Source: Candidatus Rifleibacteriota bacterium
GTDB lineage: Bacteria; Muiribacteriota; Ozemobacteria; Ozemobacterales; Ozemobacteraceae
Length of the DNA: 64,000 bases
Direction: 5' to 3'
Assembly: GCA_012517355.1 (NCBI GenBank)
Contig: JAAYVD010000088.1
Span: forward strand, 1-64,000
The position numbers and the translations under genes are program-made. The notes under the pieces are model-generated. The model worked only from the letters and a program-made list of their open reading frames with translations, was not told where the DNA came from and did no database searches. Within the stretch, counting starts at the first letter, position 1; the number at the start of each line of letters is the position of its first letter. Shown one piece after another: positions 54,670 through 64,000 of the stretch.

Positions 54670-56586
54670 ATGGATTTCTTCACGTTGCGGAGGCAGGTGG
54701 CCGAGATCAAGGCCGGCTTTGCCGCGCCGCCGGCGGTCGTGCAGGCGATCGACCTCGCCCCCGAGGGTTTCGGGCTGGTGCTCAAGGCGCCGGAGGGGTG
54801 GTTCTGCCTCGAACTGCACCTGAGCCCCGACCACCAGGGCCTCTGGCTGACCCGGTCCTGGGACGAGTCGCCGGTGCGCACCCAGATGGGACGGACTCTC
54901 GAGCGGCTGGCCCGCGATGCCTGGCTGACCGGACTGACCCTGTTCTCTTCACCCACCTTTCCGGCCGACCGGGTCGTGCAGCTCACCCTGACCTGCCGCG
55001 ATCGCTTCTTCGCCACCCGTCAGGTGCACCACCTGATCGTCGAACTGACCGGCCGGGTGGCCAACCTGCTGGCCTGCGATGCCGACCTGGTGGTGCTCGA
55101 CCAGCGCCGTCCGACCGGCAACAATGCCCCGAAATCCCCCTATCTTCCCCCCGTGGTCGACGGGCCCGCCCCGGCCGCCCGCCCCGAGGAAGTGGCCGCG
55201 GTCCTCGCCGGCCCGCCCGATTCCTGGAAGGGGCGGCTGGCGGGTTTCTCGCCCCTGATGGTCCGGGAGCTGGCTTACCGCTGCGAGGGATTGGCACCCG
55301 TTGATCGCCAGGGGGTCTTCGAGGCGCTCCTGGCCGAGGCCACGGCAGTATCCCCTGTGGCGACCACCCCTCTGACGAGACCAGGTTCTCTCCCCCGCGC
55401 CCGCTCCGAGCGGGATCCGCATCTTGCGGCCCTGCCGGGAGGGGACATCCCCGCGGCCCCTCCTGGCACGGGTGAAGGCGGTGGGCAGGGACCCTCCGTC
55501 TCCCAGCCCGGGGGGGCGCCGCCGCCGGCTCCGACCGCCCATGGCTCCCCGCCGGTCGGCCCGGTCCGCGTCTATCGGGAGGGGAACAAGGTCCGGGCGG
55601 TGGTGCCCGTCGAACTGCGTTCCCTGGCCGGCCGGGCCGACTGCCTGGAGTTCGCCACGGTGAACGAGGCCATGCTCTGGGTCGACGAGCACGGGGTCAA
55701 GGCGGCCCGCCTGGCCAATGCCCGCGACCAGGCCCGGGGCCGGTTCGCGGCCGAACTGGCTGCCCGCACCCGCCTGCGGGAAACCCTGCTGGCCGACCTC
55801 GACCGGTTCCGCGGCGCCGACCGCTACAAGAGCTGCGGCGATCTGCTGCTGTCACACCTGCGCGAGGTGCGGCCGGGTTCCCCCCGGGTGACCCTGACCG
55901 ACTGGGCCACCGGCGCCCCCGTCGAGATCGCCCTCGACCCCGCCCGCACGGTGGCGGCCAATGCGCAGAAATACTTCCGGTTGTACAAAAAGGCCCTGCG
56001 TGGGATCGAGGAGGTGACCCGCCGCCTGGCCGAGGTCGATGGCGAGATCGCCTGGTTGCGCGAGCAGGTCTGGCTGTGCGAGAACGCGGCCTCACCGGCC
56101 GACGTGATGGCCCTGCCCCGCCGGTCGCGTCGGGCGTCCGCCCCGGCCAAGGCCGCCCGTGAGGGGAAGGAGGCGGCGCGGCGCCTGAAGCCCCTGCTCG
56201 AGCTGGATGGGTGCCGCTTCTACGTTGGCCGCAACGGCCGGCAGAACGATCTGCTGACCTTCTCCCTCGCCCGGAAGGCCGATGCCTGGTGCCATGCCAA
56301 CGATGTTCCCGGCAGCCACGTCATCGTCAAGCGGGCCGATGGCCCCCCCACCGACGAGGACCGCCGGCGGGGCGCTGTCCTGGCGGCGCATTTCAGCTTC
56401 GCCCGGCAGGCCGGCAAGGTGGCGGTCGACGTGACCGACGTCGCCCACGTGCGTCGCATCCCCGGCGGCGGTCCGGGGCGCGTCTCCTATACGCATCAGA
56501 GAACCTTCCACGTCGACCCGTCCGAGGCCGTTGCCTGGCTCGCCGCCGCCTGTCATGGGCCAGAGGGCTTCGGGAACCGTCGATAA
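54670..56586 (+). CDS. rqcH: NFACT family ribosome quality-control protein RqcH
   Basis: The product is 638 aa. An NFACT-N domain (about 1-230) is followed by a Pro/Gly-rich linker (about 235-310) that is longer than usual, coiled-coil segments (about 340-480), and a C-terminal NFACT-R/DUF814 domain with FYVGRNGRQNDLLTFSLARK and HANDVPGSHVIVK. RqcH binds stalled 50S-peptidyl-tRNA and recruits tRNA-Ala to add alanine tails to nascent chains. It was formerly annotated as a fibronectin-binding protein. It has no RqcP neighbour here. Confidence 0.92.
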   Translation: MDFFTLRRQVAEIKAGFAAPPAVVQAIDLAPEGFGLVLKAPEGWFCLELHLSPDHQGLWLTRSWDESPVRTQMGRTLERLARDAWLTGLTLFSSPTFPADRVVQLTLTCRDRFFATRQVHHLIVELTGRVANLLACDADLVVLDQRRPTGNNAPKSPYLPPVVDGPAPAARPEEVAAVLAGPPDSWKGRLAGFSPLMVRELAYRCEGLAPVDRQGVFEALLAEATAVSPVATTPLTRPGSLPRARSERDPHLAALPGGDIPAAPPGTGEGGGQGPSVSQPGGAPPPAPTAHGSPPVGPVRVYREGNKVRAVVPVELRSLAGRADCLEFATVNEAMLWVDEHGVKAARLANARDQARGRFAAELAARTRLRETLLADLDRFRGADRYKSCGDLLLSHLREVRPGSPRVTLTDWATGAPVEIALDPARTVAANAQKYFRLYKKALRGIEEVTRRLAEVDGEIAWLREQVWLCENAASPADVMALPRRSRRASAPAKAAREGKEAARRLKPLLELDGCRFYVGRNGRQNDLLTFSLARKADAWCHANDVPGSHVIVKRADGPPTDEDRRRGAVLAAHFSFARQAGKVAVDVTDVAHVRRIPGGGPGRVSYTHQRTFHVDPSEAVAWLAAACHGPEGFGNRR

Positions 56587-56826
56587 ACGCTGACGGACAC
56601 GGAGGAATACCGAAGGGAACCCAATGAACATTGGTGGATACGGATGAGGGTCGAGCCCGGTTTCCGAAAGGCGGGCGACTATTCCCTGCGACGCGGAAGG
56701 CTCTCCAGCCGCCTCGCCAAGGCAGGGAATGGCACCGCGCCGTGAGCGGTTCCCGGGAACCGGCGGGTATTTGCGCCTGGAGGGGGTTGGATGGTACCAT
56801 GACCACACTCCCTCCGGAGGTGATCC

Positions 56827-58533
56827 GTGTCCAAGAGCAAGCGGCGCGAGGCGCCTGCCTCATCGGCTTCCGCTCCTTCCCCCTCGGCTCCGGCTGACCA
56901 GGCCCCCGTCGTCGGCCCGGCGACCGGGACCCCGCCATCCCCGGGACCGGCAGCAACCGCGGCAGCCTCGGCTGTCGCCGCCCCCGCCGCCCCGGCCCCG
57001 GAAGAGCCGCATGTCGATTCCTCCCTCGAGCTGTATCTGGCCGAAATCGCCCTCGACGAGGAGCTGATCCTGGCCAATCTCGCCTTCGACCCGCTGGTGG
57101 CGGGCCGGCAACTGCGGGAGCACCGGTTCGTGGTGGCCGATTTCCAGGGGATCGAGGCCAACCGGGTGCTGCTCGGGGTCATGCTCGAGATCCTCGAGAA
57201 CGAGGAGGAGCTGACCCTGGCCAACCTGACCGACCATCTCCGCGAGCAGCGCAAGGGTAGCCGCACCCGGCTCGACTGGGTGGGTGCGGAGCGGGTCGAA
57301 CGGCTGTTTACCGCCCCGTTCAGCGCGCCGAAGGTCCGGTTGATGGAGGACCTCGACCCGGTGATCGACCGCATCCGCGACCGCAACCTGCGTACCCGTG
57401 CGCGCCGGATGCTGATCCAGTATGCCGAGCGGATCGAGCACGACGAAGCCGACGCTTTCGAGACGCTGAGCGGCTGCATCCAGGAAATGAGGACCATCTT
57501 CCTGCAGGGCACCGCCGGCTACATCCGCGACCTCGATGCCCACATCGCCGAGATGCGCGAGCTGGTCCACGACGGCCGGGCCCGCAAACTGGGCTACAGC
57601 GGGTTCGACACCAACTTCCCCCTGCTGCAGGAGCGCCTGAACGGCATCCAGAAGGAGTTCTACCTGCTGACCGGCGGGGTCGGCATGGGCAAGTCGACCT
57701 TCTGCACCCAGCTCGCCTGGGACCTGGTCAACCTCAACCCCTCGCTGACCGTCCTGTTCTTCACGCTCGACATGAACCGGCTCGACGTCACGGCCAAGAT
57801 CGTCGCCCAGTCCCAGGAGGTGCCGATCGACTACGTCAAGAACCCCTTCCTGACCAACCCCCAGTTCGAGCAGAAGCGGCAGGGGGGCCTCGATCTGGTC
57901 GAGCGCCGCAAGGACCGGCTGATGATCGTCGACGAGTCGGGCGGCCGCATCTTCCTCGAGGACATCAAGCGGCTGGTCAAGCGGGTCAAGCTCGAGCGCG
58001 GGGGCGACCTGGCGGTCATCATCGACCCGTTGTTCAAGATCCACCTGAAGATGGAACGGATCGGCTTCTTCGAGAAGTGCAACCTGTTGTCGGCGGAACT
58101 GAAGAGCATCTGCGCCGCCGAGGGAGTCACCCTGATCGCCACGGCCGGCCTGCCCAAGGCCATCAGCAACCGCCGTCCGCGGCGCGAGGACCTCGAGGAG
58201 ATCATGGGCCTGCTCTACGACCCCTACGTCATCTTCTTCCTCTATTGCGACTACCTCAACGACTTCGAGACGCCCTTCCTCGAATGGGAATGGGGAAAGG
58301 ACAATTTCATGATCCCCATCTCGGAGCTGCACATCGCCAAGAACAAGATGGGCGGCGCCAACTCCCGCATCTTCTTCCGCTACTTCGAGGCGTTCGCCAA
58401 GTACAAGGAATGCGCCCCGCAGGAGGTCGAGAACTATACCGCCATGATCGAGAACCTGCAGAAATTCAAAGAGGACAAGAAACTGAAGACCAACGCCGCG
58501 CAGGCCCACGCCCAGCGCGAGGAAGAGTTCTAG
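56827..58533 (+). CDS. DnaB-helicase-like RecA-fold ATPase
   Basis: The product is 568 aa from a GTG with GGAGG seven bases upstream. The first 60 residues are Ala/Pro-rich and disordered. A DnaB_N-like helical domain follows (LELYLAEIALDEELILANLA...LLGVMLEILENEEELTLANL). The C-terminal RecA fold has Walker A GGVGMGKST at about 281-289, FFTLDMN where DnaB has FSLEM, Walker B DLAVIIDPLF, and the DnaB end pattern AKNKMGGANSRIFFRYFEAF. The catalytic Glu of SLEM is Asp here. The protein is a divergent paralogue, probably not the replicative helicase. It begins a three-gene run with TPR and HEAT proteins. Confidence 0.85.
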   Translation: MSKSKRREAPASSASAPSPSAPADQAPVVGPATGTPPSPGPAATAAASAVAAPAAPAPEEPHVDSSLELYLAEIALDEELILANLAFDPLVAGRQLREHRFVVADFQGIEANRVLLGVMLEILENEEELTLANLTDHLREQRKGSRTRLDWVGAERVERLFTAPFSAPKVRLMEDLDPVIDRIRDRNLRTRARRMLIQYAERIEHDEADAFETLSGCIQEMRTIFLQGTAGYIRDLDAHIAEMRELVHDGRARKLGYSGFDTNFPLLQERLNGIQKEFYLLTGGVGMGKSTFCTQLAWDLVNLNPSLTVLFFTLDMNRLDVTAKIVAQSQEVPIDYVKNPFLTNPQFEQKRQGGLDLVERRKDRLMIVDESGGRIFLEDIKRLVKRVKLERGGDLAVIIDPLFKIHLKMERIGFFEKCNLLSAELKSICAAEGVTLIATAGLPKAISNRRPRREDLEEIMGLLYDPYVIFFLYCDYLNDFETPFLEWEWGKDNFMIPISELHIAKNKMGGANSRIFFRYFEAFAKYKECAPQEVENYTAMIENLQKFKEDKKLKTNAAQAHAQREEEF

Positions 58534-58534
58534 G

Positions 58535-60430
58535 ATGGACAGCGCCCGCGACCTGTTCCAACGCGGCATCGACCTGCAGGAACGCGGCCTGTTCGACCAG
58601 GCGGTCGACGCTTACGCCCGGGCCCTCGAGCTCGAGCCCGACAACGAGGATGTCCTGCTCAACCTCGGCGCCGCCTGGCTCCAGAAGGGCGTGGCCCAGA
58701 AAGCTGTCGAACTGCTGAGCCGCGTGCTGACCCGCAATCCCGACCATGCCCTGGCGCTGTTCAACATCGGCAAGGCCTACCTGTTCCTCGACGACCTGCC
58801 CAAGGCCCTGGCCGCCTTCGAACGCACCGAGGAGTTTTTGCCCGACGATCCCGAGGTCCGCAAGTCGCGGGCCCAGGTCCTGTCACGGCTCGGCCGGCAG
58901 AACGAGGCGGCCGACTTGCTGATGTCCCGGCTCGAGGCCCTCGGGACCGATCCCGAGGCCCTGCATGCCCTGGGCGCCGACCTGCTCGAACTCGAGCGCT
59001 GGCAGGACGGTTCCGAGGTCTTCCGGCGCTGCCTCAACGCGGTTCCCGACTCGATTCCCGCCCTGGAGGGCCTGATCCGGTGCCAGCTCGCCCTCGGCCA
59101 TCTCGACAAGGCCTCGACCTCGGTCAAGCGGGCCCTGATGATGGCCCCGTCGCACCCCGCCTTCCACGTGCAGATGGTCGACCTGCACCTCGCCGAGAAC
59201 CACGTCGAGGCCGCCCTCGACCACCTGAAGAAGGCCCTGCAGCGTTCCCCCGACGACCCGGTCCTGCGGGCGAAGATGGACGAACTGATGCGCCGCCTGC
59301 CGGTGTTGCAGAAACGGGCGGGTGAGCCGGCGGTCGGGGGCCCGCGGCCGAGCCCCGTCGAGACCCAGGTCTACGACGTGCTCGACGCCCTCTATGACAG
59401 CCGGATCACCTTCCCGATGGCCATCCACGAGCTGCGCGACCTCTACGCCCGGGACGACAACGACCTGTTCGTCTGCGACGAGCTGGCCAACCTGCTGTTC
59501 CAGGCCCGGCAGTTCGGCGAGGCGGCCCAGCTCTACACCCGGCTGTACGGAGCCCGGCCCCTCGACCCCCGGCACCGCATCAACCTCGCCAAGGCGACCG
59601 CCCTCGACGGCGACCCCCAGGGGGCCCGGCAGTTCCTGCTCGACTCGATGCACGAGCTGCCCGGCGAGCCCGACCTGCCCCTGACCCTCGTCGAGATCAA
59701 GCTGCTCGAGAAGAACTTCCAGGGGGCGCTGCAGACCGTGGTGCAGACCCTGGCCGACTTCCCCGACCATCCGCACGGCCTGTTCCTGCAGGGGTACGTG
59801 GCCATCCGGCTCGACGATCTCGTGCAGGCCGAACGCGCCTTCCAGAAGCTGCTGCCCCTCGCCCCCAACGACGAGGAGGTGGCCGTCTGGTACGGGAGGC
59901 TCGCCATCCTGCGAGGCAAGCCCCAGGAGGGCCTGGCTGTCTGGGCACGTCTCCACGACGGGATGGAAAGCCTCGTCGAGATCCTGGCCCGCGTCGAGCT
60001 GTCGCTGGCCGCCGGCCGGCCGGCCGAGGTCATGCCGCTGCTGAAGCGGATCGGCGACTACAAGCCGCGCTTCCTCGAAGACCACCTGCTGTTCGGGAAG
60101 GCCTTCTTCTACGGTGGCGATTTCGCCGGCGCCCAGGCGCAGCTGGACGTCGTCCTGAAAGAGGAGCCGGAACACGGCGAGGCCCAGGCCCTGACCGCCC
60201 TGTGCCATCTCGGCCGGGGCAAACCCAACAAATTCTGGATCTGCTGGCAGAAGGCGGTCGAGAGCGACGCCCTGCAGGCCGTCCTGCTGGGGCTGGTCCT
60301 GGCCCCCGTGCTGCAGTTCGCGCAAGCCGAGCGCATCCGCGTCGAGACCCGCAAGCTGCTCGAGATTGCGGTGGCCGACGAGGCCGACCGGGCCCGCCTG
60401 ACCCGCCTGCTGCACGCCTACGCCGGGTGA
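58535..60430 (+). CDS. TPR-repeat protein downstream of the DnaB-like gene
   Basis: The product is 631 aa with no signal peptide; its ATG is one base after the DnaB-like stop. Regular tetratricopeptide repeats cover nearly the full length, with clear units such as LFDQAVDAYARALELEPDNE, VLLNLGAAWLQKGVAQKAVE and ALFNIGKAYLFLDDLPKALA. A looser section at about 265-330 interrupts them. It is a cytoplasmic scaffold whose tight coupling suggests it works with the DnaB-like ATPase. Confidence 0.92.
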   Translation: MDSARDLFQRGIDLQERGLFDQAVDAYARALELEPDNEDVLLNLGAAWLQKGVAQKAVELLSRVLTRNPDHALALFNIGKAYLFLDDLPKALAAFERTEEFLPDDPEVRKSRAQVLSRLGRQNEAADLLMSRLEALGTDPEALHALGADLLELERWQDGSEVFRRCLNAVPDSIPALEGLIRCQLALGHLDKASTSVKRALMMAPSHPAFHVQMVDLHLAENHVEAALDHLKKALQRSPDDPVLRAKMDELMRRLPVLQKRAGEPAVGGPRPSPVETQVYDVLDALYDSRITFPMAIHELRDLYARDDNDLFVCDELANLLFQARQFGEAAQLYTRLYGARPLDPRHRINLAKATALDGDPQGARQFLLDSMHELPGEPDLPLTLVEIKLLEKNFQGALQTVVQTLADFPDHPHGLFLQGYVAIRLDDLVQAERAFQKLLPLAPNDEEVAVWYGRLAILRGKPQEGLAVWARLHDGMESLVEILARVELSLAAGRPAEVMPLLKRIGDYKPRFLEDHLLFGKAFFYGGDFAGAQAQLDVVLKEEPEHGEAQALTALCHLGRGKPNKFWICWQKAVESDALQAVLLGLVLAPVLQFAQAERIRVETRKLLEIAVADEADRARLTRLLHAYAG

Positions 60431-60454
60431 GCCCCGGCGGGAAAGAACCCCCCC

Positions 60455-61885
60455 ATGACTGACCATCCCCCCCGCGATCATGCCACCCCGGCCGACCAGG
60501 ACCTTCCCCTCAACCGCCACGTGCCCCGGCTGAACCGGCGGGTCAGGCGCCTCGCCACGGTGCGCCCCGCCCGCCTCGACGCGGCCATCTGCGACATCAT
60601 CGACCTGCGCGGCCTGGCCGTCGCCGTGCTGCTGAAGGAAATGCCGCGGCTGCCGGCCAAGGTGCAGCGGCATGTCGCCAGGCGCCTGGAGGACTTCCTG
60701 TTCTTCCACCCCGGGAAGGGCCGTCGGCTGATGAAGCGGTTGGCCTCCACCATCGGCCGCGCCGTCCCCGCCTGCCGCCCCCACCTGATCGCCGCCCTGG
60801 CCGACGTGGCCGCCAAGGTGTCCCGTCACCCGGTCGATCTGGCCGACCTCGCCCCGCTCGCCCGCGAGGTGCTCGGCTCGAAGGCCGACCTGATGCGGAA
60901 GGGGAAGGCGGTCGAGATTCTGGCCTACGGCCGGCAGCCCGAGCACGTGCCCGTCATCATCCGGCTGCTGCAGACCGCCCTGGCCGGCATCGAGACCTAC
61001 GCCAACTACCATTTCGCCGAGACCGCCCTGTTCGCCCTCAAGCGCCTGGGCGGCGAGAGCCTGCTGCGGCTGCTGGTCAACCCGTCCTCGCCGGAAGCCA
61101 GTCAGCAGCTTCGCCTGGAATGGCGCACCTACCCGGAAGAACAGCTCAAAGCCGCCGTCCAGACCCTGCAGGGGATCGACGAACAGGTCGCCCCGGTCCT
61201 GCTGAAGGTCGTCGAACTGTCGGAATACGCCCTGCCCTTCATCGCCATGGTGCGGGAAGGCCTCGACCACCCCGACAAGTGGGTGCGCCAGGCCGCCGCC
61301 GCCTCGATGGACAAGGTCGTCGGCCAGGGCGGGTTCGAGCATCTCGACCGCATGTTGAAGGACCCGGCCGTCGAGGTGCGGCTGATGGCCGTCAGCTCGC
61401 TGGGCAGCTATCCCGCCGAGGCCACCGGCGAGCGGCTGACGGGCATCGCTCTCGACGAGAACGAGATCCCCGGGATCCGCATGAATGCCCTGTACGCGCT
61501 GTTCGCCCAGAAGAACCGGGGGGCCCTCGAGACCCTCCGCCAGAGCCCGTCGCCCCGGATCGCCGCCAACGCCATCGGCCTGCACGCCCTGCTGGCGCCC
61601 CGCGAGGACGGCCTGAAGACCCTGCTGGAGGAAGTGGGCAACCTGACCGGCGACGGGCGCCCCGAACTCTTCCCCTACCTGCTCGAACTGGCCCACCCCG
61701 AGGATCTCGGGCTGCTGGTCCAGTTCCAGGCCGCCCTGCCCGATGCCGCCCGCCGCGAGGAGTTCCTGGGGGTCGTCACCTCCTTCCTCCGGAAGAACGC
61801 CGGCCCCTCCCTCGAGAAGGCCCTCGGCCGCCTCGATGCCGCCCAGCAGAGCGCCGTCCGCCTCCTGCTCGACGGCCGCTTGTAG
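60455..61885 (+). CDS. HEAT-like repeat protein
   Basis: The product is 476 aa. After a basic N-terminus (LNRRVRRLATVRPARLDAA) the protein is built from HEAT-type helical pairs: DKWVRQAAAASMDKVVGQGG, DPAVEVRLMAVSSLGSYPAE, NEIPGIRMNALYALFAQ. It starts 24 bp after the TPR gene and ends a three-gene operon. The ribosome binding site is weak. Partner binding is the likely role; no catalytic motif is seen. Confidence 0.88.
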   Translation: MTDHPPRDHATPADQDLPLNRHVPRLNRRVRRLATVRPARLDAAICDIIDLRGLAVAVLLKEMPRLPAKVQRHVARRLEDFLFFHPGKGRRLMKRLASTIGRAVPACRPHLIAALADVAAKVSRHPVDLADLAPLAREVLGSKADLMRKGKAVEILAYGRQPEHVPVIIRLLQTALAGIETYANYHFAETALFALKRLGGESLLRLLVNPSSPEASQQLRLEWRTYPEEQLKAAVQTLQGIDEQVAPVLLKVVELSEYALPFIAMVREGLDHPDKWVRQAAAASMDKVVGQGGFEHLDRMLKDPAVEVRLMAVSSLGSYPAEATGERLTGIALDENEIPGIRMNALYALFAQKNRGALETLRQSPSPRIAANAIGLHALLAPREDGLKTLLEEVGNLTGDGRPELFPYLLELAHPEDLGLLVQFQAALPDAARREEFLGVVTSFLRKNAGPSLEKALGRLDAAQQSAVRLLLDGRL

Positions 61886-61892
61886 AAGGGAT

Positions 61893-62030
61893 CCACCGCA
61901 AGGCTTTGCGAAGGGGCTTTGCCCCTTCACCCCACCAGGGGCCAAGCCCCTGGACCCTCTTTTCCGGCCTGGGGAACGCGTGCGCGTTCCCCAGCCGCAA
62001 TGCCCGCAATGGGGGTGTCGATGCCCTTCG
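61893..62030 (+). repeat. three-hairpin interspersed element, copy 3
   Basis: GAAGGGGCTTTGCCCCTTC, CCAGGGGCCAAGCCCCTGG and CTGGGGAACGCGTGCGCGTTCCCCAG follow one another right after the HEAT gene stop. Arms are perfect or nearly so. This is the best preserved copy of the family seen at 15425 and 33655. Confidence 0.9.
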
Positions 62031-62489: not shown

Positions 62490-62525
62490 ACCACCCCCGA
62501 ATCATCAGGGATGATCGGGGGTGGT
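62490..62525 (+). terminator. hairpin after the lipoprotein gene
   Basis: ACCACCCCCGA(A)TCAT pairs with ATGATCGGGGGTGGT around CAGGG, a 15-bp stem with one bulged A. Only TTTC follows. It lies directly before the ORF6N start and contains an in-frame ATG that is therefore unlikely to be used. Confidence 0.7.
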
Positions 62526-62528
62526 TTC

Positions 62529-63074
62529 ATGCCTCACGGCGGCAAGGAAGAACGCTTGACGAACGCCATCAGGGTTCCTGGCATCGAGGCCAGCATCCTC
62601 CACATCCGGGGGCAGAATGTCATGCTCGACGCTGACCTGGCGAAACTGTATGGCGTCGAGACCTTCAACCTCAACAAAGCGGTCAAGCGGAACAGGGAGA
62701 GATTCCCGGAGGACTTCATGTTCCAGTTGACGGAGAGCGAGTTTGCCGACTTGAGATTCCAAAATGGAATGTCAAGTTCCCACGGTGGCCGCCGACATCC
62801 TCCCTTCGTCTTCACCGAACATGGGGTCGCCATGCTTTCGAGTGTGCTGCGAAGCCCCCGTGCCGTCCAGGTCAACATCTCCATCATGCGGGCTTTCGTC
62901 CGGATGCGGGGGTTGCTGCTGTCCAACGCCGACCTTGCCCGGAAAGTCGCGGCCATCGAGGCGACGCTCATGAAGCACGACGAGCAGTTCCGGGCCTTCC
63001 ACGAGATCATCCTTCCCCTCCTCGCGGCCATTCCGGCGGGGCGGAAGAAGATCGGATTCACCCCGAAAGGCTGA
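62529..63074 (+). CDS. ORF6N domain protein
   Basis: The product is 181 aa from the ATG at 62529; an in-frame ATG at 62511 lies inside the preceding hairpin. ILHIRGQNVMLDADLAKLYG, VKRNRERFPEDFMFQLTESE and FVFTEHGVAMLSSVLRSPRA are the ORF6N (KilA-N related) signature, and a C-terminal helix (ARKVAAIEATLMKHDEQF) follows. The domain is common in phage and mobile-element proteins and is thought to bind DNA. No phage genes surround it; it is an isolated accessory gene. Confidence 0.92.
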   Translation: MPHGGKEERLTNAIRVPGIEASILHIRGQNVMLDADLAKLYGVETFNLNKAVKRNRERFPEDFMFQLTESEFADLRFQNGMSSSHGGRRHPPFVFTEHGVAMLSSVLRSPRAVQVNISIMRAFVRMRGLLLSNADLARKVAAIEATLMKHDEQFRAFHEIILPLLAAIPAGRKKIGFTPKG

Positions 63075-63257
63075 TCTGCCGGTCTGTTCCGACATCGTTC
63101 CGACCGTCGGCAGACGAATCGCCTGCATGCCGCCAGCCGTGGTGGCAAGGGGGCACACCCGACCTCATGGCGGCCGTGGCTGGGAGCCCCCACGGGAAGG
63201 GCGCTGATCACGCCGGCCGGGTTGCAGAACGCGGGGGGGTGGGATACCATCCCTGGC

Positions 63258-64000
63258 ATGATTACCGACATCCTCGCGATCGTTACCGGTCTGGTGTTGC
63301 TGACGCTTTCGGCCGACTGGCTGGTGGCCGGGGCGGTGGGGCTGGCCCGCAAGATTGGGGTTTCCCCTTTGTTCATCGGGCTGACGGTGGTGGCCTTCGG
63401 CACCTCGATGCCCGAGGTCGTGGTCAGCGTGCAGGCGAGCTTCGAGAACAACCCCGGCATCGCCGTGGGCAATGCGGTGGGCAGCAACCTTTTCAACGCC
63501 GCCTTCATCCTGGGCATCGCCGCCCTCATCCGGCCGATCGCGTGCAGCAAGGCGGTGATCCGGCGGGACGTGCCGGTCATGATCCTGACGGCCGCGCTGG
63601 CCTGGTGGATGGCCTCGGATCGGCTGCTGTCGCGCCCGGAAGCGGCAACCCTGCTGGGCATTTTGGCCTTGTACATCGCCGTCAGCTATTGGCTGGGGAA
63701 GCAGGAAGCCACGCCCGACCTGCCCGACGAGGTGAAGACGGCGGAAGTGACGACCCTGCCCAAGGACCTCGGGCGCATCCTGATCGGGCTGGTCGGGCTG
63801 GTCGGCGGATCGAAGCTGTTGCTGTACGGCTCGGTCAACATCGCCAAGGCCTACGGGGTCTCGGACGAGGTCATCGGTCTGACCCTGATCGCGGCCGGCA
63901 CCTCCCTTCCCGAACTGGCGACCTCGGTGGTGGCGTCCTGGAAGGGCCAGCCCGAAATCGCCGTGGGGAACGTGGTGGGCAGCAACATCTTCAATGTTCT
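63258..64000 (+). CDS. calcium/sodium antiporter (CaCA family), truncated by window end
   Basis: About 247 codons are visible before the window ends. The ATG at 63258 opens MITDILAIVTGLVLLTLSAD, and the first alpha-repeat reads VVAFGTSMPEVVVSVQ with GNAVGSNLFNAAFILG. A cytoplasmic loop leads to the second repeat, AAGTSLPELATSVVASW with GNVVGSNIFN, at the edge. These paired GTS(M/L)PE and GNxxGSN motifs define YrbG-like Na+/Ca2+ exchangers with two inverted five-helix halves. Only the last helices are missing. Confidence 0.93.
   Translation, partial: MITDILAIVTGLVLLTLSADWLVAGAVGLARKIGVSPLFIGLTVVAFGTSMPEVVVSVQASFENNPGIAVGNAVGSNLFNAAFILGIAALIRPIACSKAVIRRDVPVMILTAALAWWMASDRLLSRPEAATLLGILALYIAVSYWLGKQEATPDLPDEVKTAEVTTLPKDLGRILIGLVGLVGGSKLLLYGSVNIAKAYGVSDEVIGLTLIAAGTSLPELATSVVASWKGQPEIAVGNVVGSNIFNV

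Follow-up and report, generated by a model that had tools for sequence, protein, structure and literature searches.

A DnaB-type paralogue of Riflebacteria, sister to phage helicases, in a conserved operon with a TPR protein

We analyzed a 64,000-nucleotide stretch of DNA from a Candidatus Rifleibacteriota bacterium (GenBank assembly GCA_012517355.1, contig JAAYVD010000088.1, positions 1 to 64,000 of the forward strand), hereafter the window, which corresponds to contig C168 in a genome of 7.1 Mb (G000). Three plus-strand open reading frames (ORFs) at 56827-61885 encode, in order, a DnaB-superfamily ATPase (hereafter DnaBp), a tetratricopeptide repeat (TPR) protein and a HEAT-repeat protein. 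We found that DnaBp forms a new branch that is cellular and spans the phylum, next to a helicase clade otherwise carried by phages, and that its gene shares a conserved operon with that of a repeat protein. If true, a phylum-level gene connects an operon of cells to the replication helicases of phages. A preliminary description of the window had proposed that a DnaB-shaped ATPase is followed, one base after its stop, by a TPR gene and then by a HEAT gene; the ORFs and their Pfam domains agree with this layout.

DnaBp is a second DnaB-type protein

DnaBp matched the DnaB superfamily profile PF03796 (DnaB_C) above the gathering cut-off (67.4 vs 27 bits). DnaB was also the best fold match (E 3e-22) in a Foldseek search with the predicted structure, which had a mean predicted local distance difference test (pLDDT) score of 79.4 and a predicted TM-score (pTM) of 0.54. 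Fold comparison with VIA gave a Z of 33.3 for the two-domain DnaB chain 9oa1_A (366 residues, root-mean-square deviation (rmsd) 13.4) and 33.2 for the ATPase domain 3bh0 (278 residues, rmsd 3.9). RadA (Z 23.4, rmsd 2.2, 207 aligned residues) and KaiC (Z 20.6, rmsd 2.8, 214 aligned residues) share the RecA fold, of which DnaBp has a single domain, but their Z values were below that of DnaB, and the KaiC profile PF06745 gave DnaBp 13.4 bits, under its cut-off of 26.6.

Against the DnaB equivalog model TIGR00665, DnaBp scored only 75.7 bits, below the threshold of 385. A canonical dnaB was found elsewhere in the genome (G000:C7) and scored 572 bits against this model. The L9 gene (rplI) lies just upstream of the canonical dnaB on the same strand, whereas the DnaBp gene is located away from rplI. 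DnaBp is a second DnaB-type protein and a paralogue of the canonical DnaB. The proposal that it is not the replicative helicase therefore held, because a second DnaB exists, and the proposed linkage of the operon survived as well, because the TPR link is conserved in relatives (see below).

A third DnaB-like protein, denoted P2, is encoded on the minus strand of the same genome (G000:C19:22538-23884; L071 8329-12699). It is widespread in the phylum (also at L074, L171-L181, L183, and L186), with two copies in genomes of family f5 and none seen in family f3. P2 retains the catalytic Glu and a K-N-R motif in nearly all rows, and, of three sequences inspected along their full length, two had a zinc-ribbon-like N-terminus.

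Conserved residues distinguish DnaBp from DnaB

The alignment compared 34 DnaBp with 30 canonical DnaB, all from this phylum; an earlier alignment held 36 DnaBp rows, two of which were fragments from genome G027. The Walker A Lys (K289) and the Walker B Asp (D400) were found in 34/34 DnaBp. The catalytic Glu, the finger Arg, an active-site Gln, and the LRESG loop of DnaB were all altered. The catalytic Glu site was Asp in 34/34 DnaBp (D315) and in 10/10 sequences of the phage clade described below, and Glu in 30/30 canonical DnaB. At the arginine-finger site, all 34 DnaBp had Lys (K507) while all 30 DnaB had Arg. A Gln near the active site, which we take to be the gamma-phosphate contact in DnaB, was present in 30/30 DnaB and replaced in DnaBp mostly by G, R, N, H or D. 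In the loop that binds single-stranded DNA (ssDNA), the Arg (R in 30/30 DnaB) was E in 22 DnaBp, Q in 4, A in 4, G in 1, and F in 1, counting the five commonest residues. The loop Gly was mostly M, A, P, T or V, and the middle Glu was retained in 26 of the 34. In DnaB of G. stearothermophilus, R381, E382, and G384 touch ssDNA, the Arg via its side chain (PMC6391071, PMC8421360).

DnaBp also has features of its own. A clade-specific insertion contains five invariant residues (T482, L485, E486, M495, and P497), and its positions 482-487 were gapped in 30/30 DnaB. Six further residues were invariant, with E528 and C529 just before a long C-terminal helix and E533, Y537, M540, and N543 within it. 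The proteins are acidic, with an isoelectric point of 5.3-6.5 in 17 of 18.

The overall fold is common to DnaBp and DnaB (PF00772 + PF03796), and the DnaBp of families f1 (Ozemobacteraceae, the family of the window), f5, and f6 also have an N-terminal domain at the same place. This domain was absent from the DnaBp of f2, f3, f4, f7, and f8. It was not matched by PF00772 in the Pfam search, and its profile matched the N-terminal domains of DnaB from the same phylum weakly (E 5e-4 for f1 and 3e-5 for f5/f6). The family pattern and this weak likeness suggest that the domain was either gained or repeatedly lost. The disordered leader of about 60 residues noted in the preliminary description was borne out by the predicted structure, but a long leader is specific to the genus of the window and is not conserved in other genera.

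The closest relatives of DnaBp are phage helicases

A search of annotated phages identified a DnaB-like helicase of Moorella phage MTATph1 (177 kb; CDS0063, WPA89550.1) with an E value of 1e-26, the next best among the matches listed being 7e-10. The gene follows a primase gene, with a DNA polymerase gene nearby. The protein is 22-27% identical to seven DnaBp, has the Asp and the K-N-K finger motif of DnaBp, and has no N-terminal domain. Further relatives were detected on viral contigs, many of them >100 kb, with 16 loci in one scan and 28 in another, the two sets overlapping. K-N-K was found in all 17 phage-clade sequences first read and in all 11 later ones. The Asp was found in the 10 aligned phage sequences, in L107, and in 10/10 later ones, with the misaligned L233 set aside. 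At this site, Glu is found in canonical DnaB, in P2 (two rows were gapped), and in the remaining phage DnaB that we examined. Five members (L107, L225, L229, L232, and L233) have primase domains fused to the helicase. Two other viral scans were less productive: one with the DnaBp profile gave only distant DnaB-like matches, among them L107, which was later placed in this clade, and one with an f3 DnaBp (L064) found no relative.

In a maximum-likelihood tree of 69 sequences, DnaBp (ultrafast bootstrap (UFBoot) 98) and the phage helicases (90) were reciprocally monophyletic sisters, with a UFBoot of 99 for their union, so that DnaBp lies beside the phage Asp/K-N-K clade and not inside it. The corresponding values in a tree of 102 sequences were 96 (DnaBp) and 99 (union). 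P2 was next to these two groups, on a long branch; L182, which had been labelled P2, fell outside P2 in the 102-sequence tree. The 69-sequence tree kept 17 DnaBp, 12 DnaB, and 9 P2 and was also without L117 and L123; the placement of L233 in it is to be disregarded, as an earlier GK[ST] had been taken as its P-loop (branch length 4.10). Left out before the trees were L184, L185, L187, and L188, which were not placeable by the trimming rule, near-duplicate or partial phage loci (L191, L194, L195, L196, L199, L204, and L205), the DnaBp pieces L068 and L069, and the window copy L070.

The sister clade thus includes MTATph1 CDS0063, gp070 of Bacillus phage vB_BauM_KLEB27-3, and relatives from IMG/VR, which have the Asp and K-N-K in common with DnaBp. 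Unlike DnaBp, the phage helicases are beside or fused to a primase with no TPR or HEAT gene noted, and in most of them the ssDNA loop retains Arg or Lys. They are also without the LEW motif of the insertion and the full C-terminal E-C-E-Y-M-N pattern. Judged from gene context and primase fusions, they are probably replicative helicases, and the Asp and Lys most likely predate the split between DnaBp and the phage clade. The substitution of Asp for the Glu of the SLEM motif, pointed out previously for the window, is real but not a private oddity, being common to this clade. We considered whether the two changes mark DnaBp as an inactive pseudo-enzyme and rejected this, because the phage relatives, some of them primase-fused, carry both; Asp and Lys by themselves do not mark an enzyme as inactive.

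The annotated replicative helicase of KLEB27-3 (L206 6025-6825) begins past the place of the P-loop, and the N-terminal portion may be encoded separately, frameshifted or interrupted.

DnaBp is distributed throughout the phylum

Of 39 genomes from the phylum (Riflebacteria), 38 had DnaBp in a profile search. The weakest match (G024) scored 413 bits and the next matches scored ≤109 bits; in G027, DnaBp consists of two pieces at contig ends. Outside the phylum, where other phyla were sampled shallowly, 0 of 93 distinct genomes had a match at E≤1e-40. These comprised 77 genomes of one other phylum, in a run without a positive control, and 17 genomes from outside the phylum, for which the controls G000 and G025 were positive and the best outside match was 6e-32; G043 was in both sets. 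Scanning a collection of 84,980 species with the insertion-peptide pattern, a single pattern that misses relatives lacking it, uncovered 31 confirmed loci, all in genomes of this phylum. Twenty-six putative synapomorphic families are reported for Riflebacteria in PMC10849945. The titles and opening lines of abstracts in the open-access literature contained no description of this operon.

The DnaBp-TPR linkage is conserved across families

In Ozemobacteraceae, the genes for DnaBp, TPR, and HEAT were found on the same strand and in the same order in 23/23 testable genomes of 24, the contig of the remaining genome (G023) ending 238 bases after DnaBp. DnaBp and TPR were also linked in 8/8 genomes of f3, f7, and f8, with a gap of -47 to +148. 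Overall, the linkage was found in 31 of 37 testable genomes, comprising 31/31 of f1, f3, f7, and f8, the spacing ranging from -68 to +148 bp. This conservation across genomes indicates that the arrangement is not due to chance. In the same 8/8 genomes of f3, f7, and f8, ligA lies directly upstream of DnaBp with a spacing of -8 to +16 bases; seven of the eight ligA genes were tested with NCBIfam, two of the seven being cut by contig ends.

The TPR proteins outside f1 aligned over their full length to that of the window at 15-20% identity. Searching the Protein Data Bank with the TPR profile returned generic TPR proteins as matches. Near the C-terminus, a KF...WQ signature is shared, in which F567 and W571 were invariant in 13/13 aligned rows, and this common signature supports orthology beyond generic TPR likeness. 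The HEAT protein had no strong match outside f1 (best 35-39 bits), and we dropped it as a core part of the operon; its fold search gave generic alpha-repeat matches alone (TMq about 0.2-0.3). The idea of two linked repeat partners was therefore upheld for TPR, which is linked in distant relatives, but only within f1 for HEAT.

Three genomes of f2 and f4 (G030, G026, and G024) had unlinked TPR matches that were full-length but weak, at about 211-227 bits, without the WQ signature and in another neighborhood. The TPR proteins of f4 and f2 genomes at L133 4616-6589, L134 5435-7270, and L135 4460-6346 (611-657 aa) are encoded, as judged by eye, near STAS-like and other recurring genes. They are possibly distant relatives of the TPR protein of the window. 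In f5, a small HPt-phosphotransfer-like protein is divergently encoded upstream of DnaBp (L055 6919-7323 and L056 6459-6824); the one tested gave no NCBIfam match.

In the DnaBp tree with a phage outgroup, f3 branched first, then f7 and f8, then f1 with f5, f6, f2, and f4. On this rooting, which sits on a long branch and is a weak point, the ligA-DnaBp-TPR order would be old, HEAT would have joined in f1, and the TPR link would have been lost in f2, f4, f5, and f6. A doubtful but possible extension is that the phylum domesticated a helicase of the large-phage branch into a non-replicative ring machine of chromosome biology with a TPR adaptor, and with HEAT in one family, the ligA-DnaBp-TPR order being ancestral.

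Possible functions of DnaBp

We tentatively favor the reading that DnaBp is a ring ATPase acting with a TPR adaptor in chromosome maintenance, which we place just short of an even chance. A phage-type ring ATPase of the DnaB superfamily with a RecA fold would already have been present in the ancestor of the phylum and kept beside its own dnaB. The protein probably forms a hexamer and, given the invariant Walker A, Walker B, and Lys/Lys finger, most likely still binds ATP and hydrolyzes it slowly at the subunit interfaces. In RecA, the comparable change E96D altered ATP hydrolysis without loss of ATP binding, as described in PMC5240526, which suggests a slow rather than a null ATPase. The TPR protein would hold DnaBp via the clade-specific insertion and the C-terminal helix, and the HEAT protein would join the pair in Ozemobacteraceae. 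The role would be in repair or fork restart near ligase action and not in bulk replication; the ligA linkage in three families and the kinship to replication helicases lean toward DNA.

Several observations weigh against this. The ssDNA-loop Arg is Glu in most DnaBp, and its loss, together with the acidity of the proteins, would lean away from tight translocation on ssDNA. DnaB_C was the only family with a role in repair or replication that the protein-family searches matched. In 6/6 genomes of f2, f4, f5, and f6, neither partner gene was detected next to DnaBp (which in one of them, G027, lies on two contigs), and a neighboring TPR gene is thus not indispensable to DnaBp. DnaBp was not found in G030, the single genome of the phylum without a match, which is 92% complete. 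ligA is not adjacent to DnaBp in f1, and a position next to a housekeeping gene, here ligA, can arise by accident, even if it is old.

A rival explanation, possible but rather unlikely in our view, is that DnaBp is no longer a helicase but an ATP-gated ring scaffold or switch to which TPR and HEAT bring protein clients. KaiC and archaeal ArlH offer a comparison for such a role. The loss of the loop Gly and of the only side-chain contact of the DnaB loop with ssDNA (R to mostly E, Q or A) is consistent with it, as are the variable active-site Gln, the acidity, the repeat-protein partners, and the invariant residues found only in DnaBp. However, phage primase-helicases of the sister clade vary at the same Arg, replaced by L (L107, L229) or A (L232), and at the same Gln, replaced by E or H, so these losses are no proof of lost DNA work. 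The ligA linkage in three families also argues against a scaffold.

Less likely still is an active role of DnaBp as an accessory helicase, such as an additional primosomal or restart motor working with DnaG or P2. The invariant P-loop and Walker B and the shared Asp/K-N-K set of the phage replicative helicases would fit such a motor, but the ssDNA-loop Arg is replaced, mostly by Glu, the DnaBp of f2, f3, f4, f7, and f8 lack an N-terminal domain able to bind primase, and P2 was not seen in f3, where DnaBp is present. That the genes are merely adjacent, unrelated housekeeping genes whose linkage has no functional meaning would agree with its absence from four families, but appears improbable, as the linkage was kept with close spacing and a common C-terminal signature while TPR identity fell to 15-20%. 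We give the least credence to an anti-phage role, in which host copies of a phage-type helicase poison the rings of infecting large phages: the nearest relatives are large-phage helicases and the ATP-site and finger residues are retained, but nearly all genomes of the phylum have a conserved DnaBp, which sets it apart from most defense genes, Moorella and Bacillus are the hosts of the two named sister phages, and the PADLOC matches were all weak and partial (mad8 1.3e-5 for DnaBp and HEAT-ARM_XIII 2e-4 for HEAT).

If right, the favored reading also splits two questions that tend to be merged, namely whether a DnaB-type ring with Asp and Lys can work and what role it has beside the existing DnaB. 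The phages suggest that a ring with Asp for Glu and Lys for the Arg finger can work. The TPR signature and the C-terminal helix found only in DnaBp are direct targets for mutation.

Features of the window

The stop codon of DnaBp (TAG) is separated from the ATG of TPR by a one-base spacer, and TPR from HEAT by 24 bases. A GGAGG precedes the GTG start of DnaBp, so its leader is probably translated. No sigma-70-like promoter was found, and terminator-like matches were at chance level (4 found vs 4.5 expected); the one with the best stem lies just 3' of HEAT. The three genes are probably carried on one transcript.

Table 1 Coordinates of the DnaBp-TPR-HEAT genes and their features in the window.
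Feature	Position	Strand	Basis
Shine-Dalgarno-like GGAGG before DnaBp GTG	56816..56820	+	Read from sequence; putative function
DnaBp, DnaB-superfamily ATPase, 568 aa, GTG start	56827..58533	+	PF03796 67.4 bits; best Foldseek matches all DnaB
Disordered leader, residues 1-63	56827..57015	+	pLDDT <50 for residues 6-63
Helical N-terminal domain, residues 66-229, divergent DnaB-N-like	57022..57513	+	Weak profile match
RecA-fold motor domain, residues 257-530	57595..58416	+	Pfam, structure prediction, fold comparison
Walker A GGVGMGKS, residues 283-290	57673..57696	+	K289 in 34/34
Asp 315 (FTLDM) at SLEM catalytic Glu site	57769..57771	+	Alignment
Walker B Asp 400	58024..58026	+	D in 34/34
Loop binding ssDNA in DnaB (DLRESG), here DLEEIM, residues 455-460	58189..58206	+	Alignment
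Clade-specific insertion T482-P497 (TPFLEWEWG..MIP)	58270..58317	+	Alignment
K505-N506-K507 finger motif (K-x-R in DnaB)	58339..58347	+	Alignment
Long C-terminal helix, residues 531-567	58417..58527	+	Alignment and structure prediction; putative docking role
TPR protein, 631 aa	58535..60430	+	TPR_19 149 bits (Pfam)
KFWICWQ signature near TPR C-terminus	60230..60250	+	F567 and W571 invariant in 13/13 aligned rows
HEAT-repeat protein, 476 aa, all-helical	60455..61885	+	HEAT_2 45 bits (Pfam); mean pLDDT 91.1
Terminator-like hairpin and T tail 3' of HEAT	61935..61953	+	Pattern match

Directly upstream of DnaBp, a divergent NFACT/RqcH-like protein is encoded at 54670-56586 (NFACT_N 112 bits, Pfam), and in several further Ozemobacteraceae genomes a homologue likewise precedes the DnaBp operon. 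Downstream of the operon, the ORF at 62511-63074 reads by eye like an ORF6N-type DNA-binding protein and that at 63222-64000 like a sodium/calcium exchanger.

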